Source: Methylacidiphilum infernorum V4 (GTDB lineage: Bacteria > Verrucomicrobiota > Verrucomicrobiia > Methylacidiphilales > Methylacidiphilaceae). From it: DNA of 64,000 nucleotides. Each line of letters opens with the position of its first letter. The stretch's first letter is position 1. Location of the stretch: positions 1,736,001 through 1,800,000 of the forward strand of contig NC_010794.1 of the NCBI RefSeq assembly GCF_000019665.1, read 5' to 3'. The notes beneath the pieces are model-generated. The model did not search any database. It saw nothing but the letters and a program-made list of their open reading frames with translations, and was not told the origin of the DNA. Shown here one piece after another: positions 15,859-53,280 of this stretch. A program made the position numbers and the translations under genes.

Positions 15859-16003
15859 AATAAAGTTTCTTTCTTGCAGCTCCCCATGACCTAATCTTCC
15901 AGCCATCCTTTCTTATCGTTTTGCAAGCAGAAGCAAAAACTAGCCCCTAGCTCTCCTAAACGGCCAATTCAGCTTCTTCTTTATACCAAGAGTAGAGTTT
16001 TTT
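15859..16003. other. Spacer after nifV
   Basis: No gene. A weak stem TTTTGC/GCAAAA is visible around 15918-15937. It ends at the mini-element boundary at 16004. Confidence 0.4.
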
Positions 16004-16228
16004 ACCGTTCCGTCAGACTTACTCACTGCTGCTCAAACAGGGACAAAGCTGACAGACTTCCTCGTCGAGGCGGACGGGGCCGGCGCGTGCGCGTCAGTCC
16101 AGAGCCTTCCTCTCCACGGGCCGCCTTCCGGTGGAACTCACCGCAGGGCCGTTCAAGACGGCCAATATGAGGTAAAACAGACAAGAAAGATTGAAAAAGA
16201 TCAAATAATGAATCAACTGTTCAAACCC
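16004..16228 (-). mobile_element. Transposase-less mini-element related to the TnpB insertion sequence (copy A)
   Basis: This 225-base block closely resembles 20447-20675 and shares both ends with the intact TnpB element at 37814-39250. The low end (ACCGTTCCGTCAGACTTACT) is the right end, and the following 130 bases match the tnpB 3' end (for example CCAGAGCCTTCCTCTCC). The high end CAACTGTTCAAACCC is the left end. Between them only a short hairpin, GGCCGT/ACGGCC with loop TCAAG (16147-16163), replaces the tnpB body. It cannot encode a transposase. In TnpB families the retained segment is the guide-RNA scaffold, so this may be an orphan omega-RNA locus on the minus strand (inference). Confidence 0.7.
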
Positions 16229-16235
16229 CTAGAAC

Positions 16236-16855
16236 CAACCTTCTTAGGCCGATTGCCTCCCCCACAAGTCTAATCTTTTAGGGAGGGTGCATTTAAGCAG
16301 GGTTTTTCTATGGTCAGCCTTGGATTGTCATCCATGGATACAATGATTCATCCGGCATTCCCTTTCTGCTACCAGAAAATCGTGCATTGGGTGGCTCTTT
16401 TCCTTTACCCCCCCGATTGCTTGCGCAATCGTCTCCGGCAGTCTAGACTTTCCCGGCTACGTCCAGGGATCCTTTGCCGCAGTGCCGCCGCTACCGGCCT
16501 TCCTCGCCACGGCTAGGGCAGTTGCGGTCGCCAATTACTTGGGAGACTTTGCCGCATCCAGATCAAAATCGAGCTCTGCGCCTCATGCCGGACACACCCA
16601 CGGCCGATCCTTGGGAGGGAGTCAACCGTTTGTCCAAACACGGACCGGGCACAAAAGGCTGCCCGGGTAGGGACGATCAGCAATGATCCGGCTTTGGGCC
16701 CCCTCCACTGCCATAGCCCCTTGACTGATACACCCAACAGCTTCGCCGCCTTGGCTGTGCCCATGGTGCTATACATCTGGAAATTATACGTCGATGCGCT
16801 TGTTATCCGATACCAGGGGCAAGCTCCAGGTGCAAATGGGAGAAGGGCAAGCTTT
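16236..16855 (-). pseudogene. Decayed region with a fragment of an IS607-type resolvase (tnpA) HTH
   Basis: About 600 bases without an intact gene. On the minus strand from 16776 the frame reads MYSTMGTAKAAKLLGVSVK, which resembles the MerR-like helix-turn-helix at the start of IS607 serine-recombinase TnpA. After that the similarity breaks up (GLWQWRGPKAGSLLIVPTR) and the catalytic resolvase domain is not readable in any frame. The segment is more G+C-rich than the neighbouring genes. Together with copy A it makes the nifV-cysH gap a small mobile-element graveyard. The family call rests on about 20 residues and is moderate. Confidence 0.45.
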
Positions 16856-17569
16856 TCAAGGCAACAATCGATGGGTTTCGTGTAGGCCGCATTCTCTTTT
16901 TATTCCAAAAAAACGCGTTTCTTCTGCCTTCATCCCCTCTTCAAGCCTTCTTGTTGTATGAACATCGCCAATGGAAACGTAGCCCTGGTAGACAAGGGGA
17001 TGAACCGGCAGATGATGTTCATGTATAAATTGCTTAACCTTTTCATCTGTCCAATCAGCAATGGGATGGATCTTGACACGGTTCCAATGCCATGTTGCAA
17101 GTGCAATATTCTTTCTCGTTGAGGATTGTTCTCTACGTAATCCCGAAATCCAGCACTTTGCTCCAAGCTCCTCCAATGCCCGGTTCATGGGCTCCAGCTT
17201 CATCAACCGGTTGTATTTTTCAATCCCTTCCCTGCCTTTCTCCCAGAGTTTTCCATACCGCGCTTCAAACCACGCTGCCGAAAGGGATGGCCTATACACT
17301 TTAAGATTAATGTGAAATTTCTCGACAAGGCTATCTATGTACCTATATGTTTCCGGGAAAAGATAACCGGTATCAATAACGACAACGGGTATTTCAGGCC
17401 ATACAGAAAGGGTGAGCTTGAGCATGACCACCGCTTGGGCGCCAAAGCTCGAACTGAGCAGAACTTTTTTGTCAAAATATTCAATCGCCCAGCGTATCCG
17501 CTCTACCGGTTCCTTTTTTTCCAAAATACGGTTATACTCTTCTACGGCTTTGAAAAACTCTTTTTGCAT
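16856..17569 (-). CDS. cysH: Phosphoadenylyl-sulfate (PAPS) reductase
   Basis: Reduces PAPS to sulfite with thioredoxin or glutaredoxin in assimilatory sulfate reduction (237 residues). It has the PP-loop start LLSSSFGAQAVVML, VIDTGYLFPETYRY, KCWISGLRREQSSTR and the catalytic C-terminal ECGLH. It lacks the paired CC motifs that hold the 4Fe-4S cluster in APS reductases, which agrees with a PAPS-specific enzyme and with the APS kinase domain encoded by the divergent cysNC gene. An AGAGAGGA ribosome-binding site precedes the ATG. It is divergent from cysD with a 77-base gap. Confidence 0.93.
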   Translation of the reverse strand: MQKEFFKAVEEYNRILEKKEPVERIRWAIEYFDKKVLLSSSFGAQAVVMLKLTLSVWPEIPVVVIDTGYLFPETYRYIDSLVEKFHINLKVYRPSLSAAWFEARYGKLWEKGREGIEKYNRLMKLEPMNRALEELGAKCWISGLRREQSSTRKNIALATWHWNRVKIHPIADWTDEKVKQFIHEHHLPVHPLVYQGYVSIGDVHTTRRLEEGMKAEETRFFGIKRECGLHETHRLLP

Positions 17570-17646
17570 CTCGTCCTCTCTCTTAATAAAAAAAAAGGGT
17601 TGTCAAAAAAAAGAAATCAAATAAAACTATATTCACTCTATAGAAT

Positions 17647-18450
17647 ATGCAGAATTTAGACAACTTAGAATCTCAAAGTATTTATATTTTTCGTGAAGCC
17701 CGTTATGCTTTCAAAAATTTGGCTATGCTTTGGTCCATGGGAAAGGATTCCAATGTTCTCCTATGGCTTGCCAAGAAAGCTTTTTGTGGACACATTCCCT
17801 TTCCGATCGTCCATATTGATACTACTTATGAGTTTCCCCAGATGCTCGAATTCCGCTCCTGGGCAAAGGAATTTTACGGCTTTGAACTTATCGTCAAAAT
17901 CAACCACGAAGCAATAGCCCGCGGGATAAGTTACAAGACTCATGATCCCCTAACGGTAACTCACGAGCTGAAAACAGTGGCTTTAAAGCAAGCCCTGGAA
18001 ACCTATAAATGGGATGGCCTGATTACCGGGATCCGGAGGGATGAGGACGGGGTAAGGGCAAAGGAAAGGTATTTTTCTCCTCGGAACCAATCCATGGAAT
18101 GGGAATATAAAAACCAGCCTCCCGAATTTTGGAATTTATTTTTGGCTACCCTGCCCAACAATGGACACATGCGCATACAGCCCCTGCTTGATTGGACCGA
18201 ACTGGACATCTGGCTCTACATAAAGAGAGAAAATATTCCTATTCCTTCTCTTTATTTTTCAAAAAATGGGAAGCGTTACCGCTCGCTGGGCTGTTGGCCC
18301 ATCACCCACCCGGTTGACAGTCATGCATCGACCATAGATGAAATCATCGAAGAACTTTACACCACAAAAACATCGGAAAGAGCGGGAAGAGCCCAGGACC
18401 ATGCCGAACCCAATGCGATGCAAAAGCTTCGCGCAAAGGGTTTTCTCTAA
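17647..18450 (+). CDS. cysD: Sulfate adenylyltransferase subunit 2
   Basis: Small catalytic subunit of ATP sulfurylase, making APS from ATP and sulfate; active as a complex with CysN (267 residues). The PP-loop SMGKDSNVLLWLAKK and the IDTTYEFPQMLEFR, GIRRDEDGVRAKER and SLGCWPITHPVDSHA blocks are typical CysD. Immediately followed by cysNC (15-42 bases depending on start). No clear ribosome-binding site precedes the ATG, and TATATT at 17628-17633 would put transcription start close to it. Confidence 0.94.
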   Translation: MQNLDNLESQSIYIFREARYAFKNLAMLWSMGKDSNVLLWLAKKAFCGHIPFPIVHIDTTYEFPQMLEFRSWAKEFYGFELIVKINHEAIARGISYKTHDPLTVTHELKTVALKQALETYKWDGLITGIRRDEDGVRAKERYFSPRNQSMEWEYKNQPPEFWNLFLATLPNNGHMRIQPLLDWTELDIWLYIKRENIPIPSLYFSKNGKRYRSLGCWPITHPVDSHASTIDEIIEELYTTKTSERAGRAQDHAEPNAMQKLRAKGFL

Positions 18451-18492
18451 AACATTTTTATCCTTTTGAAAACTTCTTTTAAAAAAAAACCG

Positions 18493-20403
18493 ATGAAAAA
18501 TGATCTTCCTTTAGAAGCCAGAAGTCTGAATGTTATCTTCGCAGGTCATGTCGATCATGGGAAATCAACACTGATTGGAAGGATCCTTTGGGAAACGGAT
18601 AGCATTTCAAAGGAAAAAAAAGAAACAGTCATAGCCTATTGCAAAAAAAACAACATCGATTTTGAATATGCCTTTCTTTTGGATTCCCTGGCTGAAGAAA
18701 GGACTCAAAACATCACTATCGATGTAACCGAGGTGCACTTCTTTTATGGGAAAAGAAGATTCAGAATCATCGATGCCCCGGGGCACCTGGAGTTTTTGAA
18801 AAATATGATCAGCGGGGCAGCCAAAGCCGATTGCGCGGTACTCGTCATTGACGTGACTTCGGGAATCGGAGAGCAAACAAAAAGGCACGCTTTGCTCCTC
18901 TCTCTGTTGGGCATAAAACAGATTGTTATTGCCATGAACAAATTTGACCTTGTCAACTACGACAGGCAAACATACGAGAGATTGAGCAATGAATGTAAAA
19001 GCCTTTTTAAAAAGCTTGGGCTAGATAGCCTATCGATCGTTCCTCTCTCGGCAAAGGCCGGGGAAAACATCATAGGAAGATCTCAGCGGTTCAGCTGGTA
19101 CCATGGTGGAAGCCTGCTTGAAGTCCTGCTCGGTCTTGAATCTTCAGAGTCCGCCGAATGCTCCCCTTTGAGACTTCCCATTCAAGATATCTATCGCTTT
19201 GACAATCGCAGGCTTTTGGCAGGGAGAATTGAATCGGGGAAAATCGAATGCGGAGAGCTGGTCCGCTTTTTCCCGTCGGGCAAGAAAAGCAGGATCAAGG
19301 CTATCCACCATTGGCCAGCCGAAAGTTCGCCTCTTAAAGTGACGGCGGGCAAATCAACGGCGATTCAGATAGAGGATGAAATCTTCATTGAACGTGGAGA
19401 AATTATTGCCCACGAAGATTCCCCACCCCTCGTTGGAACCGATTTTTGCGCAAGATTATTCTGGCTGGGTGACTCTCCCTTGATTGTGGGAGCTCCCTAC
19501 ACTTTTCGGCTGGCTACCGGACAAAGTGTGGCCAGGGTATTGCAGGTGAACAGGGTTATCGATGCCTGCACCCTCGAAGACCTCCAGCCCGTGCCCATGG
19601 AAGTAAAGAAAAATGAAACTGCAGAAATCATTCTCCGCACCTCCGCTCCAATTGCTTGCGATCCCTTTGAAAAAATCCCGATGACGGGAAGGTTTATCCT
19701 GGCCGATAGGGACAGGATATCGGGTGGAGGAATAATACTGAAGGTTCTTCCCAGTAAAGCTGTCCATGAAACCCAGGGCAGATCCCGTATAACGCAGCTC
19801 CAGAGGACTAAATTCCTGGGTCACCGCAGCGGAGTATTTTGGATGACGGGTTTATCGGGATCCGGTAAAACTACACTCTCCAACCGCCTGGAACAGATGC
19901 TTTTCCACAGGGGAATCCTCGCTTATGTCATAGACGGTGACGAACTGCGGACCGGGTTGAGCAAGGATCTAGGATTTGATGTTGAAAGCCGCAGGGAAAA
20001 CATCCGCAGGGCAGCAGAAATGGCAAAAACCCTGGCTAAATCGGGCTTGGTAGTGATCGTTGCCCTCATTTCTCCTTTCGACGTGGATAGAAAGAATGCC
20101 CGGGCGATCTGTGAAAAAGAGGGCATTCTTTTTAAAGAGATTTACGTCGATGCTCCTCTTGACATCTGCAAGTCCAGGGATCCGAAGTTTCTTTACCTTA
20201 AAGCAAGTAAAGGAGAAATTCCTCAAATGACGGGCTTGGATTCCCCTTATGAACCTCCCCAATCTTGTGACCTCCATCTTTTGACCGGGAGTGAGTCTAT
20301 AGAAAGTTGCCTGGGAAAACTCTTGGATTTTATCATTCCCCTCGTCCGCCTTACTCCGGATAAAGAAAAGGACCTCCTGGAAGATCCCGCCGCAGAAATT
20401 TAG
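18493..20403 (+). CDS. cysNC: Bifunctional sulfate adenylyltransferase subunit 1 / adenylyl-sulfate kinase (CysN-CysC fusion)
   Basis: GTPase subunit of ATP sulfurylase fused to APS kinase, as in NodQ. From the ATG at 18493 the protein has 636 residues. The CysN part holds GHVDHGKSTLIGRIL (G1), DAPGHLEFLKNM (G3) and NKFDLV (G4), plus two beta-barrel domains (to about residue 440). The CysC part has MTGLSGSGKTTLSNRLE (P-loop), DGDELRTGLSKDLGF, SRRENIRRAAEMAK and MTGLDSPYEPP. A TTG at 18466 is an alternative start adding nine residues; neither has a strong ribosome-binding site. With cysD it converts sulfate to PAPS for CysH. Confidence 0.93.
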   Translation: MKNDLPLEARSLNVIFAGHVDHGKSTLIGRILWETDSISKEKKETVIAYCKKNNIDFEYAFLLDSLAEERTQNITIDVTEVHFFYGKRRFRIIDAPGHLEFLKNMISGAAKADCAVLVIDVTSGIGEQTKRHALLLSLLGIKQIVIAMNKFDLVNYDRQTYERLSNECKSLFKKLGLDSLSIVPLSAKAGENIIGRSQRFSWYHGGSLLEVLLGLESSESAECSPLRLPIQDIYRFDNRRLLAGRIESGKIECGELVRFFPSGKKSRIKAIHHWPAESSPLKVTAGKSTAIQIEDEIFIERGEIIAHEDSPPLVGTDFCARLFWLGDSPLIVGAPYTFRLATGQSVARVLQVNRVIDACTLEDLQPVPMEVKKNETAEIILRTSAPIACDPFEKIPMTGRFILADRDRISGGGIILKVLPSKAVHETQGRSRITQLQRTKFLGHRSGVFWMTGLSGSGKTTLSNRLEQMLFHRGILAYVIDGDELRTGLSKDLGFDVESRRENIRRAAEMAKTLAKSGLVVIVALISPFDVDRKNARAICEKEGILFKEIYVDAPLDICKSRDPKFLYLKASKGEIPQMTGLDSPYEPPQSCDLHLLTGSESIESCLGKLLDFIIPLVRLTPDKEKDLLEDPAAEI

Positions 20404-20446
20404 TTTTTTTCAAAGAAATCAAATCCCTCGAGGGATGAATGAATTA

Positions 20447-20675
20447 ACCGTTCCATCACGCTTGCTCACTGCTGCTCAAACAGGGGCATAGCTGGCAGAC
20501 TTACTCATCGAGGCGGACGGGGCTGGCGCCTGCTGCGCCTCAGGCCAGAGCCTTCCTTTCCCCAGGCCTGCCTTCCGGCGGAACTCGCCGTAGGGCCGTT
20601 CAAGACGGCCAATATGAGATAAAATGGAAAAGAAAGATTGAAAAAGATTAAATAATTAATCAACTGTTCAAGCCC
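20447..20675 (-). mobile_element. Transposase-less mini-element related to the TnpB insertion sequence (copy B)
   Basis: Sister of the 16004-16228 block, with clear base-by-base similarity along its whole 229 bases, including the GGCCGT/ACGGCC hairpin with loop TCAAG (20594-20610). Right end ACCGTTCCATCACGCTTGCT; left end CAACTGTTCAAGCCC. It carries the tnpB 3' segment (CAGAGCCTTCC, GGCGGAACTCGCCGTAG) but no room for a transposase. It lies 43 bases after cysNC and about 35 bases beyond the moaE stop codon, with its left end toward moaE. It is possibly mobilised, or expressed as a guide RNA, in trans with the intact TnpB at 37843-39045 (inference). Confidence 0.7.
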
Positions 20676-20709
20676 TGGAAGAGAAAGGGGGGGAAGCCCT
20701 GTCCATGTA

Positions 20710-37813: not shown

Positions 37814-37990
37814 ACCGTTCCGTCAGACTTACTCATTCCTGCTCAGCCATCGACAAAGCTGGCTTCCTGCTTCACCGAGGCGGTTCGCTTGGCGCGAAAC
37901 GCCAAGCCAGAGCCTTCCTCTCCGCAGGCGTGATTTCCGGCGGAACTCGCCGTAGCGAGCGCCAGGCGCTCAAGATTTTTCGCCGCGTTC
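37814..37990 (-). ncRNA. Candidate omega (right-end guide) RNA of the TnpB element
   Basis: In TnpB families the guide RNA is transcribed from the tnpB 3' end through the element's right end, and its guide is the adjacent flank. Here the tnpB 3' end and right end (37814-37990) are the part preserved in two mini-elements and in the decayed copy, including GAGAGGAAGGCTCTGG and TGAGTAAGTCTGACGGAACG. This conservation beyond the stop codon supports an RNA function. The flank just outside (37794-37813) would be the guide. Exact ends and expression are unproven. Confidence 0.4.
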
Positions 37991-39045
37991 AGGTCGCGGT
38001 CGTGGATCGCACCGCAGGCCGGGCAAGTCCACTCCCGCGCCGACAGCGGCAAGGTTTCCAACTCGTACCCGCACGCCGAACACGTCTTGCTGCTGGCGTA
38101 GAACCGATCCGCAACCACCACCACGCTTCCCCGCATAGCGGCCTTGTACTCCAGCTGCCGCCGGAACTCGAAGAAACCGCCGGCTGCGATGGAACGGGCA
38201 AGACGCCGGTTGCCCATCATTCCACGCACATTCAGGTCCTCGACGCCGATGATCGAAAACCGACGCGTGAGGCCGGCCGACAGCTTGTGCAGGGCGTCCA
38301 TGCGGCTGTTGGCGATTCGAGCGTGCAGCCTAGCCAGCTTTACCTTGGCCTTTCGCCGGTTGGCCGATCCCTTGGCCTTGCGCGAGAGGCTCCGCGAGAG
38401 CCTGCGCAAGCGGCCCAGCCGCGCCTTGTGCGGCTTGGGGCCAGGCACCTTCTCCCCCGTCGAGAGCGTTGCCAGCGCGGTCAGGCCCAAGTCCACACCC
38501 ACCGCGCCTTGGTTCTCGGCTTTGGGTAGATGCAGCCCGGGAGCGTCTACTGTGATGCTGGCGAACCATCGGTCGGCCACCCGGGAGACCGTGGCCGACA
38601 CGATCTTACCGGTGAAGCGCAACGGCTCGCGCATGCGCACCCAGCCAAGATTCGGGATGCGAATGCGGCAGCCGTCAACCTCAAACTGATCGTTGGTAAG
38701 GGTGAAACGGTCGTCACGGCCTTTCTTGCGAAATTGTGGATACCGCGCTCGACCCGCGAAGAAGTTCGCAAACGCCTGCCCCAGCTGAATAATCGCCATC
38801 TGCGGGGCACATTTGGTGACTTCCAGCATCCAGGGGAACTGCTCGCGCTTGATGGCGTTGAGCTGGCGGCGCAAGGAATACTGCGATGGCTTGGGCAATC
38901 TCTTGTCGGCCTTCCATGCCTCGTACTGCTTTTGCCACTGCTCCAGCGCCCAGTTGTAGGCGAAGCGTGCCGTGCCCGCAGCCTTGGCAAAATAGGTCGC
39001 CTGCGCGTTGTTCGGATCAAGGGCTATTTTGTGGGAAATCAGCAT
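37843..39045 (-). CDS. tnpB: RNA-guided endonuclease TnpB, apparently intact
   Basis: TnpB (400 residues), the ancestor-type RuvC nuclease of Cas12. It has an N-terminal wedge region (LISHKIALDPNNAQATYFAK) and all three RuvC acids: D185 in GVDLGLTALATL, E269 in IIGVEDLNVRGM and D351 in HDRDLNAAKNLERL. A four-cysteine zinc ribbon lies between the last two (C322 and C325, C341 and C344). Length is typical. The codon usage is markedly G+C-rich compared with folP and polX on either side. Known activity of the family is cleavage of empty donor sites to keep the element, guided by omega RNA. Confidence 0.93.
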   Translation of the reverse strand: MLISHKIALDPNNAQATYFAKAAGTARFAYNWALEQWQKQYEAWKADKRLPKPSQYSLRRQLNAIKREQFPWMLEVTKCAPQMAIIQLGQAFANFFAGRARYPQFRKKGRDDRFTLTNDQFEVDGCRIRIPNLGWVRMREPLRFTGKIVSATVSRVADRWFASITVDAPGLHLPKAENQGAVGVDLGLTALATLSTGEKVPGPKPHKARLGRLRRLSRSLSRKAKGSANRRKAKVKLARLHARIANSRMDALHKLSAGLTRRFSIIGVEDLNVRGMMGNRRLARSIAAGGFFEFRRQLEYKAAMRGSVVVVADRFYASSKTCSACGYELETLPLSAREWTCPACGAIHDRDLNAAKNLERLALATASSAGNHACGEEGSGLAFRAKRTASVKQEASFVDG

Positions 39046-39234
39046 TGCGCAACCTTAAGATTATCCCTGTTTTTATCAGATCCAACGCTTTCGTGTCTCC
39101 TGTTGCCTTTCCATTCCCAACGCTTCAGCACTTGGGCACAAATACCAAGAAACTCGGCGGCTTCGTGGATACCTGCCAGTTAGCGTTTTATGTGTGAAAT
39201 ATTTAAAAAAGCGCAGGAATAAGCAAGGATTAAA

Positions 39235-41133
39235 TTAACTGTTCAAACCCTTTTTCTTTCTTCCCTTGATCTGTAAAGCTTGGATTACTTCTTTGAGAGG
39301 GAGGCAGTTGATAACATCTTCTTTGCGCAGCCACCCTTTACGGGCGATATTGACTCCAATCTTAAAGAAAGCGATTTCTTTGAAGTGGTGTGCGTCAGGA
39401 TTGATAACGCACTTTACCCCTTTATCTCTAGCTGTTTTCCATAGTCTCCAGTCCATATCCAGCCGCATAGGCTGAGCATTTAACTCTATCCAACAACCTG
39501 TCTTTGCGGCGCAATCAATAACCTTGTCCATGTTTACAGGATAAGGTTTTCTGACCAACAATAATCTTCCCGTCGGATGCCCTAACATTGTCACGTAAGG
39601 ATTCTCCATGGCTTTTATAAGCCTTTGGGTATTATCATCTTCATCGCTAGAAAAACCGGCATGAAGAGAAGCAACGACATAATCCAGCTCTTTGAGCAAG
39701 GAGTCGGGAAAATCCAATTTCCCTTCTTTCAAGATGTCACACTCGATACCGCTCAATAACCGGAAATTTTTCCACCGGGCATTCATGTTTTTTATTTTTT
39801 CAACCTGGGCATATACTCTTTCTTCACTCAGCCCATTAGCTTGAAAAGAAGATTTCGAGTGATCGGCTATACCCAGGTATTCTAATCCCATGTCCATGGC
39901 TGCCTTGGCCATCTCTTCCAAGCTACTCCTGCCGTCGCTTTCGGTTGTATGACAATGGAAAACTCCCCGAATATCTTCCCATTCCACGAGTCTTGGGATT
40001 TCATTTTTTTCAGCAGCTTCAATCTCGCCCATGTTTTCTCTCAGTTCTGGAGGAATGTAGGCAAGACCCAAGGATGCATAAATGTCTTTTTCGCTCCGGC
40101 ATGGAATCTTGGATTCAAAAGGTTGAACAAGCTGAGGGTTATCCTCGGATTCTCCTTCAGCCGTTTCTCTTTCTTGTGCTCTCGACACCCGGAAAAGTCC
40201 CCATTCGGATAGTTTTTTGCCCTGGGCAATCGCTCTTTGCCGCAAGGCCACGTTATGTTCCTTGCTTCCTGTAAAATGAAGGAGAGCATAAGCATAATCT
40301 TCATCCGGGACAACGCGCAGATCACAGGAAATACCTTTTTCCAGTAACACCGTGGATTTCGTTTCTCCATGATTGACAATGCGACTTACTTGGGGAAACC
40401 GCACGAAATAATCCATGACGGCCTGCGGTGTTCCGGAAGTACATATAAAATCAAGATCTTTTACGATCTCTTTTCCCCTCCGAAAACTCCCGGCAACATG
40501 AACATGAACAATTGAAGGATTTTTTTTCAGATAATCAAGGAGCTCTTCTACGATGTTGATGAGATCCCCGTACCGATGGTAGGCGGCAAAAGAGCGGAAT
40601 TGACTAATTCCTAAAAGGATGTTTTCTTCGGACTTTGGACCAAAACCGGCTAATACGGCGATCCGATGTTCCTTGCATGCTTTCTCCAAAGAATCAATAT
40701 CTTTAATCCCGAGTTCCTCATAAAGAATCTTTGCTCTCTTGGGTCCCACTCCCGGAATCTCAAGTATCTCTAAGAGACTGGCAGGAAACTCTTTTTTCAA
40801 TTCTTCGTAATAGGGCAGGCTCCCCGTAGTGATCAGCTGGGTTATTTTTTCTCCAATTCCCTCCCCAATGCCTTTTATCCCCTTGAGACGTCCTTGGGCG
40901 ACCAGATCGTCCAGCTCCTCGGCTAAAGAGTCAATTACCCTTGCAGCTGTTCGATAAGCCCTGGATTTAAAGGGATTTTCCCCTTTCAATTCAAGCAAAG
41001 TGGCGATGCCTTCAAGAACAGAAACGACCGTCTGTTTATCCACTTTCTTCGCCGGGGAAAGAACTTTTTTTGGAACTTCGACTTGTGAAGCGTCTGAAGT
41101 CGGGGACTGATTTTCCTTTTTTTTCTTTGCCAT
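39235..41133 (-). CDS. polX: DNA polymerase/3'-5' exonuclease PolX
   Basis: Family-X DNA polymerase for gap-filling in base-excision repair, fused to a PHP phosphoesterase (632 residues). It has N-terminal helix-hairpin-helix repeats (LKGIKGIGEGIGEKITQL, LEIPGVGPKRAKILYEELG), a nucleotidyl transferase core (VAGSFRRGKEIVKDLDFICT, with its DxD acids) and a C-terminal PHP domain (VFHCHTTESDGRSSLEEMA, IADHSKSS, INPDAHH). The ATG at 41133 is preferred over an upstream TTG (41205). The last codons GLNS plus stop coincide with the left end of the TnpB element, so the present C-terminus was reset by that insertion. Confidence 0.92.
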   Translation of the reverse strand: MAKKKKENQSPTSDASQVEVPKKVLSPAKKVDKQTVVSVLEGIATLLELKGENPFKSRAYRTAARVIDSLAEELDDLVAQGRLKGIKGIGEGIGEKITQLITTGSLPYYEELKKEFPASLLEILEIPGVGPKRAKILYEELGIKDIDSLEKACKEHRIAVLAGFGPKSEENILLGISQFRSFAAYHRYGDLINIVEELLDYLKKNPSIVHVHVAGSFRRGKEIVKDLDFICTSGTPQAVMDYFVRFPQVSRIVNHGETKSTVLLEKGISCDLRVVPDEDYAYALLHFTGSKEHNVALRQRAIAQGKKLSEWGLFRVSRAQERETAEGESEDNPQLVQPFESKIPCRSEKDIYASLGLAYIPPELRENMGEIEAAEKNEIPRLVEWEDIRGVFHCHTTESDGRSSLEEMAKAAMDMGLEYLGIADHSKSSFQANGLSEERVYAQVEKIKNMNARWKNFRLLSGIECDILKEGKLDFPDSLLKELDYVVASLHAGFSSDEDDNTQRLIKAMENPYVTMLGHPTGRLLLVRKPYPVNMDKVIDCAAKTGCWIELNAQPMRLDMDWRLWKTARDKGVKCVINPDAHHFKEIAFFKIGVNIARKGWLRKEDVINCLPLKEVIQALQIKGRKKKGLNS

Positions 41134-50801: not shown

Positions 50802-52139
50802 ACCGTATTCTTTGGCTTGCTCACCCCTGCCTAAATAGGAAAGAAGCAGGCTTCCCGCTTCATCGAGGCCGGTTTCGTTCTCGCCTTGCGACCAAGACCA
50901 GAGCCTTCCCCTCCAGGAGCCGACACCGTGGAACTCACGGCCAAATCCTTGCGATTCACTGGGGCGTCCACCTCCCGGTGTTGCTCAGCCCCACAGGCTG
51001 GACAGCTCCACCTCCGCGCCAAGATCGGCAAGCTTTCCAACCGGTGCCCGCAGCAGGAACGGCTCTTGCTGCCGGAAAAGATCGGATCGGCGACCACCTC
51101 CCCGCCTCGGATCGCGACCTCTTATTCCAACTGCCGCCGCAACTCCTAGAAGCCCACCTCTGCGATCGACCGAGCCATTCTCGGGTTGCCTATCATGTCA
51201 CTCACCGCCAGGCCCTCAGGCGCCGCTGGGCTAAAACCGGCGTCTGAGTCCAGTCGTGGGCTTGAGCAGGACCTCCATGCGGCTGTCAGCGATTCTGCCG
51301 TCAAGCCTCGCCAGCTTCTCCCTGGCCTTGCCCCGGCTGACCGACTTCTTCCTCTTGGAGCCCAGGCTCAGCACTAGGCTGCGCAAGCGGTCCAGCAGCT
51401 CCTTGGGCGGCTTGGAACTGGTCACCTTCTTCCCAGCCGAGATCCTTGCCAGGGCCTACACGGCCGGATCCACGCCCACCGCGCCTTGGTTTTCGGTTGG
51501 GGGTAGGAACAAGGCGGCCGGGTGTGTCCACAACGATGCGGGCGAACCACTTGCCGGAGATGCCGGCAGGACGCTGCCGACATGATCTTGCCAGTAAAAC
51601 GCAAGACCTGGAACATGCGCTCCCAGCCGATCTTGGGGATTCGAATCTGCAAACCGTCGCCTTCAAACCGGCGGCTTGTGAGGGTGAAACGGTCGCGAAC
51701 GGCTTTCTTAGGAAGAGTTGAGGTAACGGATCCGTCCGGCAAAGAAGTCCTGGAACGGTTGCCAGACTGGATAATCGCCGCTTTAGGAGCGCACTTGGCA
51801 GCTTCGGGCATCCACGGGTATTGATTGTGCTCGAGCGCATTCAACAGGCTTTGTAGCGAAGCCCGCAAAGGCTTCGGTATAGAGGCGTCTTTTCCCCATG
51901 CCTCGTACCGCTTTCCCATTTTTTGCCCCAAGCCCAATTGTCGACAAAGGGGGCTGTTCCCGCCGCCTCGGGCAAAACAATCAGCCTGCTTTTTGTTTGG
52001 ATCCTGGACGATCTTGTGGGCGATCAGCACCGCGACCCCACTGGAACTGGGCAGCCTCACGAACGCAGCCCTTCTTGCGCGAGCTGTTCGAAACGCACAC
52101 CGCAGAAACGAGCACCTCAGAAGCGAACCGATCAAACCC
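50802..52139 (-). mobile_element. Decayed TnpB insertion sequence
   Basis: About 1340 bases related along the whole length to the intact element at 37814-39250. The right end ACCGTATTCTTTGGCTTGCT is recognisable but diverged. The left end, GATCAAACCC, lies at the mqnE stop codon. It is more G+C-rich than neighbouring genes. Older than the 37814 copy, judged by the number of frameshifts and substitutions. Confidence 0.75.
50831..52032 (-). pseudogene. tnpB pseudogene (frameshifts and stops)
   Basis: The N-terminal part (LIAHKIVQDPNKKQADCFAR, PWMPEAAKCAPKAAIIQSGN) and the central RLRSLVLSLGSKRKKSVSRG lie in different frames. The C-terminal zinc ribbon with SKSRSCCGHRLESLPILARR and WSCPACGAEQHREVDA is split off in a third. 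The last RuvC acid region reads HREVDAPVNRK instead of HDRDLNAAKN, so the active site is gone as well. Comparing it with the intact copy shows it cannot make TnpB. Confidence 0.8.
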
Positions 52140-53280
52140 TAGCAGGCAAATAAGAATTAGGCTCTAGTTTCCGGTAATAGGTATCCCGACGTATGGGAAT
52201 TTTTCCCGCATTTTCAATCGCCTTTCTTAAGGTGGCAACGGTCTGTCCCGGGGGTGTCTTCGATCCGGCCATGTGAAAGATTCTTTCCTTTTCAATCGTC
52301 CCGTGCAAGTCATCTGCCCCGTAATTGAGGGCGAGTTCTGCAACGGCCATTCCCGAACTGATCCAGTAGGCCGTTACGTGATCAAAGTTATCCAAGAACA
52401 GCCGGCTGAAGGCAATCGTTTTTAAAAAATCGATGCTCGTAGCCTTCTTTATATTTCCCAGCTTTGTGTTTTCCGGTTCAAAGGCAAAAGGAATAAAAGC
52501 ACAAAAGCCCTTCGTTTCATCTTGAAGTTCCCGAAGCCTCGATAGGTGATCAACTCGATGGGCAAGGGTTTCAACATGGCCAAAAAGCATTGTCGCCGTA
52601 CTTTTTTTCTTCAGGTTGTGCCACCGCCTGTGCACTTCGAGCCACTCATCGGCGCTTTCTTTACCTGCACAGATCCTTTTTCTTATTTCCGGATCAAATA
52701 TTTCGGCTCCTCCCCCCGTTAAAGAATCCAGGCCGGCGGATGCAAGGTCAACCAGGACCTCTTGGATAGATTTCTTGGCGATTCTTTTCGCCAAATGGAT
52801 GATCTCTACGGCCGTAAAGGCCTTAATCATTACCTGGGGCAATTTTTCTTTTATTGCTCGGATCAAATCGAGGTAATAAGAATAGGGTAGCTTCGGGTGC
52901 AATCCGCCTACGCAATGAACCTCCGTGGCCCCTTTTGCCGCCGCCTCTTCGGTTTCTTTAACCAGTTCTTCTATGGAATGGGTAAAAGCTCCTTGTTGGC
53001 CATTTCTTCTATAAAAAGCACAAAATTGACAGCTCAAGATACAAACATTCGAATAATTCAGGTACCGGTTAAGAATATAGGTAACCACATGCCCATTCTT
53101 ATCCCTGGAAACCCAATCGGCAAGGCTGCCTACAAAATTCACGTCCGGACAGGCATAAAGACGCAGCCCATCTTTAACGCTCAACCTAAGGCCATTACCG
53201 ATTTTCTCTACTATATCCGCTAATCCCAGCCGCAGGGAACGATCTAAGAAAGTCGAATAGATATTCTCGTTGATTCTCAT
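52132..53280 (-). CDS. mqnE: Aminofutalosine synthase
   Basis: Radical-SAM enzyme of the futalosine pathway to menaquinone (382 residues). The cluster motif is NVCILSCQFCAFYRRNGQQG (CxxxCxxC). ATEVHCVGGLHPKLPYSYYL and VMIKAFTAVEIIHLAKR, with AEIFDPEIRKRICAGKE, identify MqnE rather than MqnC. The stop TGA (52132-52134) falls within GGGTTTGA at the edge of the decayed TnpB element, so the last codons were shaped by, or selected as, the insertion site. It is cotranscribed with mqnP and ubiX-like genes. Confidence 0.9.
   Translation of the reverse strand: MRINENIYSTFLDRSLRLGLADIVEKIGNGLRLSVKDGLRLYACPDVNFVGSLADWVSRDKNGHVVTYILNRYLNYSNVCILSCQFCAFYRRNGQQGAFTHSIEELVKETEEAAAKGATEVHCVGGLHPKLPYSYYLDLIRAIKEKLPQVMIKAFTAVEIIHLAKRIAKKSIQEVLVDLASAGLDSLTGGGAEIFDPEIRKRICAGKESADEWLEVHRRWHNLKKKSTATMLFGHVETLAHRVDHLSRLRELQDETKGFCAFIPFAFEPENTKLGNIKKATSIDFLKTIAFSRLFLDNFDHVTAYWISSGMAVAELALNYGADDLHGTIEKERIFHMAGSKTPPGQTVATLRKAIENAGKIPIRRDTYYRKLEPNSYLPARV

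Follow-up and report, generated by a model that had tools for sequence, protein, structure and literature searches.

Two related mini-elements in the window

What are two short blocks of DNA that keep the guide-RNA end of a TnpB insertion sequence, but neither a transposase nor the body of TnpB? They lie in a window (the whole stretch analysed, 64,000 nucleotides (nt)) of Methylacidiphilum infernorum V4, contig NC_010794.1, positions 1,736,001 to 1,800,000. We consider it probable that both are copies of a non-autonomous IS607 mini-element that is proposed to use TnpA and TnpB in trans, a miniature inverted-repeat transposable element (MITE) in the broad sense, with no terminal inverted repeats. 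Direct observation covers their anatomy and copy number, their common ancestry with TnpB elements, their insertion at GG targets, their absence from orthologous places in a sister species and the presence of a cognate TnpA and TnpB in the genome.

In pairwise comparison the two blocks are 87% identical over 220/224 nt (E 8e-76), which bears out the original prediction that they are related over their full length. Their cores lie at 16005-16225 and 20448-20672, at most 3 bases from the limits first proposed. Their parts are listed below, with LE and RE standing for the left and right ends, TAM for target-adjacent motif and R1 for a covariance model described further on.

16005-16225, minus strand: mini-element 1 (copy w1752212); its LE is at the high coordinate and its RE ends in ..GAACGG at 16005; member of a 20-copy family
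16226-16229, minus strand: GGGG, left boundary of mini-element 1; insertion target GG and putative TAM (consensus RGGG)
16166-16225, minus strand: left end of mini-element 1, homologous to the LE and tnpA leader of autonomous IS607 elements, about 51 nt colinear
16005-16165, minus strand: predicted omega-RNA scaffold of mini-element 1 (R1 106.8 bits, E 3.9e-28, model positions 1-163/163)
15985-16004, minus strand: would-be guide of mini-element 1 (TAAAAAACTCTACTCTTGGT), the flank after the RE
20448-20672, minus strand: mini-element 2 (copy w1756659); the orthologous intergenic region of sister genome G001 is without it
20673-20676, minus strand: AGGG, target and putative TAM of mini-element 2, from the flank tally
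20448-20612, minus strand: predicted omega-RNA scaffold of mini-element 2 (R1 92.8 bits, E 3.1e-24, model positions 1-163/163)
20428-20447, minus strand: would-be guide of mini-element 2 (TTAATTCATTCATCCCTCGA), the flank after the RE

A mobile repeat family with IS607-type ends

The host genome was searched as one contig of 2,287,145 bases. BLAST located 30 related places, far more than chance would give, of which 20 are near full-length copies (204-225 nt) with both ends present, sharing a mean pairwise identity of 78% (range 60-91%); the two window blocks are members of this repeat family. The left end of the mini-elements starts YTTGAACAGTTGATT and the right end closes GAACGG, giving a boundary consensus of RGGG followed, across the junction, by YTTGAACAG ... 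GAACGG. When the flanks of the 20 mini-elements were tallied together with those of three TnpB-bearing elements, the left flank proved to be RGGG, with G in 22/23, 23/23 and 20/23 elements at positions -4, -3 and -2 and R in 21/23 at -5, and nearly all 23 carry GG at the end of the RE. The right flanks of these elements contain no motif, and the adjacent flanks differ in all copies, as had been noted for the would-be guides of the two blocks.

Elements of the IS607 family end in GG and insert at (G)GG without target duplication (PMC6188088), and some IS607 TnpBs recognise the TAM GAGGG (PMC11061315); the RGGG flank agrees with both. The ends of the mini-elements are not inverted repeats, and no flanking target duplication was seen at unoccupied sites, though several spacers have diverged. 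A classical MITE was therefore rejected, the ends being of IS607 type.

Evidence for mobility comes from the joined flanks of four mini-elements, which were used as queries within the genus. All four (m95807, m989973, window block 2 and m1411894) match sister genome G001 across the joint without an insert. The clearest empty site is that of m989973, where coding sequences reach the junction from both sides; at the other three the spacer has diverged and the exact junction base is not fixed. Two of these copies display further peculiarities. Mini-element m989973 apparently provides the stop codon of its upstream gene, which reads ..AGG GCT TGA into the left end (locus L012). Copy m1411894 (L010) is a chimera with its left part from the mini family and its right part nearest to the resident TnpB elements, which suggests gene conversion between the two.

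Cognate TnpA and TnpB elements

The window itself holds two larger relatives of the mini-elements, with the following features.

37815-39247, minus strand: TnpB-only IS607-type element sharing both ends with the mini-elements, tnpA absent
37843-39045, minus strand: intact tnpB, 400 amino acids (aa), with RuvC motifs GVDLG (183), GVEDLN (267) and DRDLNAA (349) and two CxxC
37815-37974, minus strand: predicted omega-RNA scaffold overlapping the tnpB 3' end (R1 144.6 bits; the sequence is in the R1 training set)
50803-50960, minus strand: predicted omega-RNA scaffold of a fourth, decayed TnpB element (R1 76.5 bits, E 1e-19)

Both termini of the first element had been proposed to recur in the blocks, and this holds: the right end is shared over 143-146 nt at 74% identity (E ~1e-19) and the left terminus at 13/14 nt, while the remaining ~51 nt of the left end align colinearly, with few gaps, in a multiple alignment. 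Its TnpB matches Pfam OrfB_IS605, TNB and HTH, the NCBIfam model guided_TnpB (309 bits, cut-off 100) and the structure of ISDra2 TnpB (E 3e-69). Because tnpA is absent, this element is itself non-autonomous. The decayed element (50803-52140) retains a tnpB remnant at ~51000-52140 with stops in all frames of its translation. An intact IS607 element with the mini ends is nevertheless present elsewhere in the genome (L048:1090-3000, TnpA of 214 aa and TnpB of 404 aa); its LE and RE are common to the mini-elements, and its TnpA (L048:1131-1775) matches NCBIfam transpos_IS607 at 216 bits against a cut-off of 110.

The name TnpB might suggest an IS200/IS605 origin, which we rejected on finding no match to the Y1 tyrosine transposase (PF01797) in the whole host genome. 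On the basis of the shared ends, the GG targets, the intact TnpA and TnpB element with the same ends and the 4/4 empty sites, the mini family can be assigned to the non-autonomous IS607-family elements, with a serine TnpA, a GG target and a RAGATH-18-type RNA. The original prediction had described blocks without a transposase or TnpB body that retain the omega-RNA end and have their termini in common with resident TnpB elements, and this description stands; mobilisation in trans likewise gains support from the 20 copies, the empty orthologous sites and the IS607 TnpA in the genome.

What the proposed deletion left

Comparison with autonomous elements of the host genome and of other members of the family offers a greater level of detail about the origin of the mini-elements. 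Their left ~51 nt are colinear with the LE and tnpA leader and diverge near the tnpA start, and their right 160 nt correspond to the tnpB 3' end plus the RE. As the two parts match in this way, the mini-elements are the parent element stripped of its genes. They would stem from an ancestral TnpA and TnpB element in which an internal deletion brought the LE and tnpA leader (~60 nt) up against the 5' edge of the omega RNA, so that only the LE, the complete omega-RNA scaffold and the RE remained, ~220 nt in all. The coding body had been thought to be replaced by a GGCCGT/ACGGCC hairpin. This part of the prediction has to be revised: the hairpin is the scaffold's own 5' hairpin. Elements of a sister genome carry its homologue in the corresponding position within the tnpB 3' end (TTTGGCCGTCCTAAACGGCCCTA in G004); in the window's own tnpB it reads GAGCGC/GCGCTC.

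The predicted omega-RNA scaffold

The scaffold was modelled on alignment A3, composed of the right ends of other elements, most with tnpB nearby (L064, L070 and L079 are without a detected tnpB) and none of them a mini-element of the host genome; R1 was likewise built without any of these. The structure tested on A3 comprises a 5' hairpin, another hairpin with a GUUCC loop that pairs with GGAAC at the RE, the two RAGATH-18 helices (P1, P2) and a 3' stem. Paired cells amount to 87.7%, compared with 83.8% after shuffling and 30-49% with slid partners, and 31 cells are changed on both sides, compared with 12.3 in shuffles (0/500). This layout is the same as that of the solved right-end RNA (reRNA) of ISFba1, including the loop-to-3'-end pseudoknot PK2 (PMC11061315).

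R1 matches all mini-elements end to end. Rfam RAGATH-18 (RF03064) matches autonomous elements and several mini-elements with an intact core over its full length, at 26-28.6 bits against a gathering score of 44.9, so that these matches are suggestive and not proof of family membership. In the covariance searches, which had been advised for the two blocks, R1 recovers both in full and RAGATH-18 matches neither. At the gathering threshold, Rfam has no match anywhere in the window.

Distribution among related genomes

R1 finds matches in 12/13 genomes of the family. Three mini-elements of 225-226 bp with the same layout, an intact P1 arm and an unaltered scaffold occur in G007, which belongs to another genus and also holds four related tnpB-linked elements. 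A DNA search found no full-length mini-element of this family in the four other congeners, and the matches of a G007 mini-element in a BLAST search of 289 genomes sampled across the phylum are confined to the same family. No mini-elements were found in phages, plasmids gave partial matches only (the best to a Hydrogenophilus TnpB), and two exact-pattern scans of genome contigs returned no match. Both mini-bearing genomes have a cognate tnpB, and the case of many mini-elements with never a tnpB, which would have spoken against the prediction, was not encountered, two genomes being too few to relate copy number to tnpB.

Two further deletion derivatives keep an omega-RNA end and arose independently: one of 570 bp, present in seven copies in the host genome and derived from a second IS607 element, and one of 311 bp with a single copy in G004. 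The seven copies (L029-L035, e.g. L030:1269-1838) measure 568-572 bp and are 98-99% identical; each has one open reading frame, in which a TnpA helix-turn-helix is fused to a TnpB zinc-finger/RuvC-III tail, and the RE of the second IS607 element (L025/L060). A remnant of this second type, 78% identical to the 570-bp element, adjoins block 1 at 16411-16533. HEARO, an IscB guide RNA family, lies ~15 nt downstream of the RE of one mini-element (L014:1259-1488, minus strand), and a second HEARO sits beside a TnpB element in G004 (L075:1158-1392, minus strand).

A rearranged core and the rival explanations

The mini-elements of the host genome do not all carry the same RNA core. In 13/20 copies, among them the two of the window, the place of GAAGCAGGAAGTC is taken by GAGTAAGTCTGTC or a closely similar variant; this segment resembles the element's own terminus GAGTAAGTCTGAC. 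The swap removes the 3' arm of RAGATH-18 P1 (CCUGU:GCAGG), of which 42% of cells are paired in swapped copies and 97% in unswapped ones. A 7-bp helix displaced outward, GGCAGGC:GUCUGUC (P1'), has 85/90 cells paired in swapped copies as opposed to 24-36/90 in slid registers, and U-to-C changes inside it preserve the pairs; by its predicted pairing, P1' may replace the lost P1. The swapped subfamily, the most numerous, is nearly a clade (support 98/96), with one unswapped copy inside. In ISFba1, mutations that disrupt the pseudoknot PK1 abolish cleavage (PMC11061315). By analogy, we infer that PK1 involves nucleotides of the swapped region, and the rearranged core of the window copies may or may not leave the RNA working.

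The main rival, to which we give a substantial chance though one clearly short of even, is that the mini-elements are passive MITEs: recognition by TnpA would be all that matters, the 160-nt right part would be kept for the RE and accessory TnpA sites, and the fold would be inherited and decaying, with no guides made. Several observations weigh against a role of the RNA. Within the mini-elements alone, pairing and covariation do not rise above shuffles (54/500 and 50/500), so that selection on the RNA after gene loss is not demonstrated, and the covariation expected of the stem holds for the tnpB-linked and cognate right ends only. The RAGATH-18 scores stay below gathering level, both window copies carry the swapped P1, and promoter hexamers, which some of the elements have in the LE with conserved spacing, are not more frequent than in shuffles. 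The RE may have been kept solely because TnpA needs it. That the most amplified subfamily has lost P1 also fits a passive element, as does the likeness of GAGTAAGTCTGTC to the terminus, which could make it an extra TnpA-binding repeat; in the ends of IS607-family elements, TnpA binds direct repeats that are short and subterminal (PMC6188088). However, the deletion reaches the scaffold's 5' edge and goes no further, the G007 mini-elements retain that scaffold unaltered, and the 570-bp and 311-bp derivatives kept the omega-RNA end as well. Moreover, ~160 nt of RE exceeds what TnpA binding in IS1535 leads one to expect, where the RE is bound poorly and the main binding sites are in the LE (PMC6188088).

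It is improbable, in our estimation, that the swapped subfamily makes a remodelled or decoy RNA, which TnpB would bind but could not use, or would use differently, lowering TnpB activity or favouring the spread of the mini-elements. The regular pairing of P1', its pair-preserving changes and the near-monophyly and abundance of the subfamily would suit such an RNA, but P1' could come by chance from the swap, and unswapped copies manage without it. Independent shortening of full TnpB elements with no mobile family, for which the genome's other decayed TnpB elements (window 50803-52140; L056, frameshifted) might speak, is rejected as extremely improbable by the single LE-scaffold junction shared by 20 copies that are nearly uniform in length, differ in their flanks and have unoccupied orthologous sites, and by the recurrence of the layout in another genus. 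A regulator-like role, in which the guides are aimed at other loci of the host genome, was rejected for the two window guides, as the first 18 nt of neither has a second genomic match there with up to 2 mismatches.

Relation to known systems

Stand-alone IscB omega RNAs, guide loci without an adjacent nuclease gene, were reportedly inferred by Altae-Tran and colleagues in 2021 to act in trans. The mini-elements differ in having a TnpB/RAGATH-18-type RNA inside units for which empty sites support mobility.

Transposase-free derivatives of the TnpB family and IStrons without open reading frames are already known. The Haloquadratum PATEs (IS605-derived and transposase-free; PMC3119063) resemble the mini-elements in their deleted core, their TnpB-family ends and their presumed mobilisation in trans. 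They are, in contrast, archaeal, with IS605-type palindromic ends, some only 52 bp long and with no omega-RNA scaffold reported there, whereas the mini-elements are of the IS607 serine TnpA type with a complete scaffold. IStrons such as the BcISt1 variants (PMC4227781) have likewise lost both reading frames and kept the RE structure, but they carry a group I intron, of which Rfam found none in the window.

Also close are the ISFba1-type IS607 TnpBs with a RAGATH-18-derived RNA (PMC11061315). Like the mini-elements, these combine an IS607 TnpA/TnpB context with a G-rich TAM at the LE, a guide in the RE flank, a RAGATH-18-like core and a PK2-like pairing between the 5' hairpin loop and the 3' end. 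The mini-elements differ in lacking proteins and, in the window copies, in the swapped P1. In their parents the scaffold also overlaps the tnpB coding sequence, unlike the reRNA, which the authors of that study place separate from coding sequence. In the open-access literature, outside which most subscription papers lie, we found no direct precedent for IS607 or TnpB mini-elements composed of the ends and a complete scaffold.

Proposed life cycle and implications

In the mechanism that we propose for the non-autonomous IS607 mini-elements, TnpA acting in trans would excise them and insert them at (G)GG. Transcription across the scaffold and on into the flank would yield an omega RNA with the flank after the RE as its guide. 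TnpB, also in trans, would cut the resealed empty site RGGG+guide, and repair from a sister copy would restore the mini-element.

These steps do not carry the same weight. Movement by TnpA in trans is well supported by the anatomy. Guide supply and TnpB-driven retention are suggested by the complete scaffold, the TAM-like RGGG flank and the intact TnpBs (window 37843-39045; L048); for the unswapped copies we hold the chances to be about even, while for the two window copies both are unlikely. Across the family, supply of guides in trans is plausible, yet for the window pair it is doubtful. The steps involving the RNA and cutting by TnpB are more likely in copies with an unaltered RAGATH-18 core (the three in G007 and most of the seven unswapped ones) than in the 13-copy swapped subfamily. 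We tentatively entertain, at somewhat less than even probability, an omega-RNA-only selfish element whose sole product would be a guide RNA, borrowing TnpA to move and TnpB for retention, present in two genera and with one subfamily having a rearranged core helix.

The mini family provides natural scaffold variants, with the core helix intact or swapped, for asking which parts of an IS607 omega RNA TnpB needs. If the mini-elements do make guides for TnpB in trans, parasites of the element could exploit homing by TnpB as a common resource, and a gene-free stretch of ~220 bp would be the smallest unit able to benefit.

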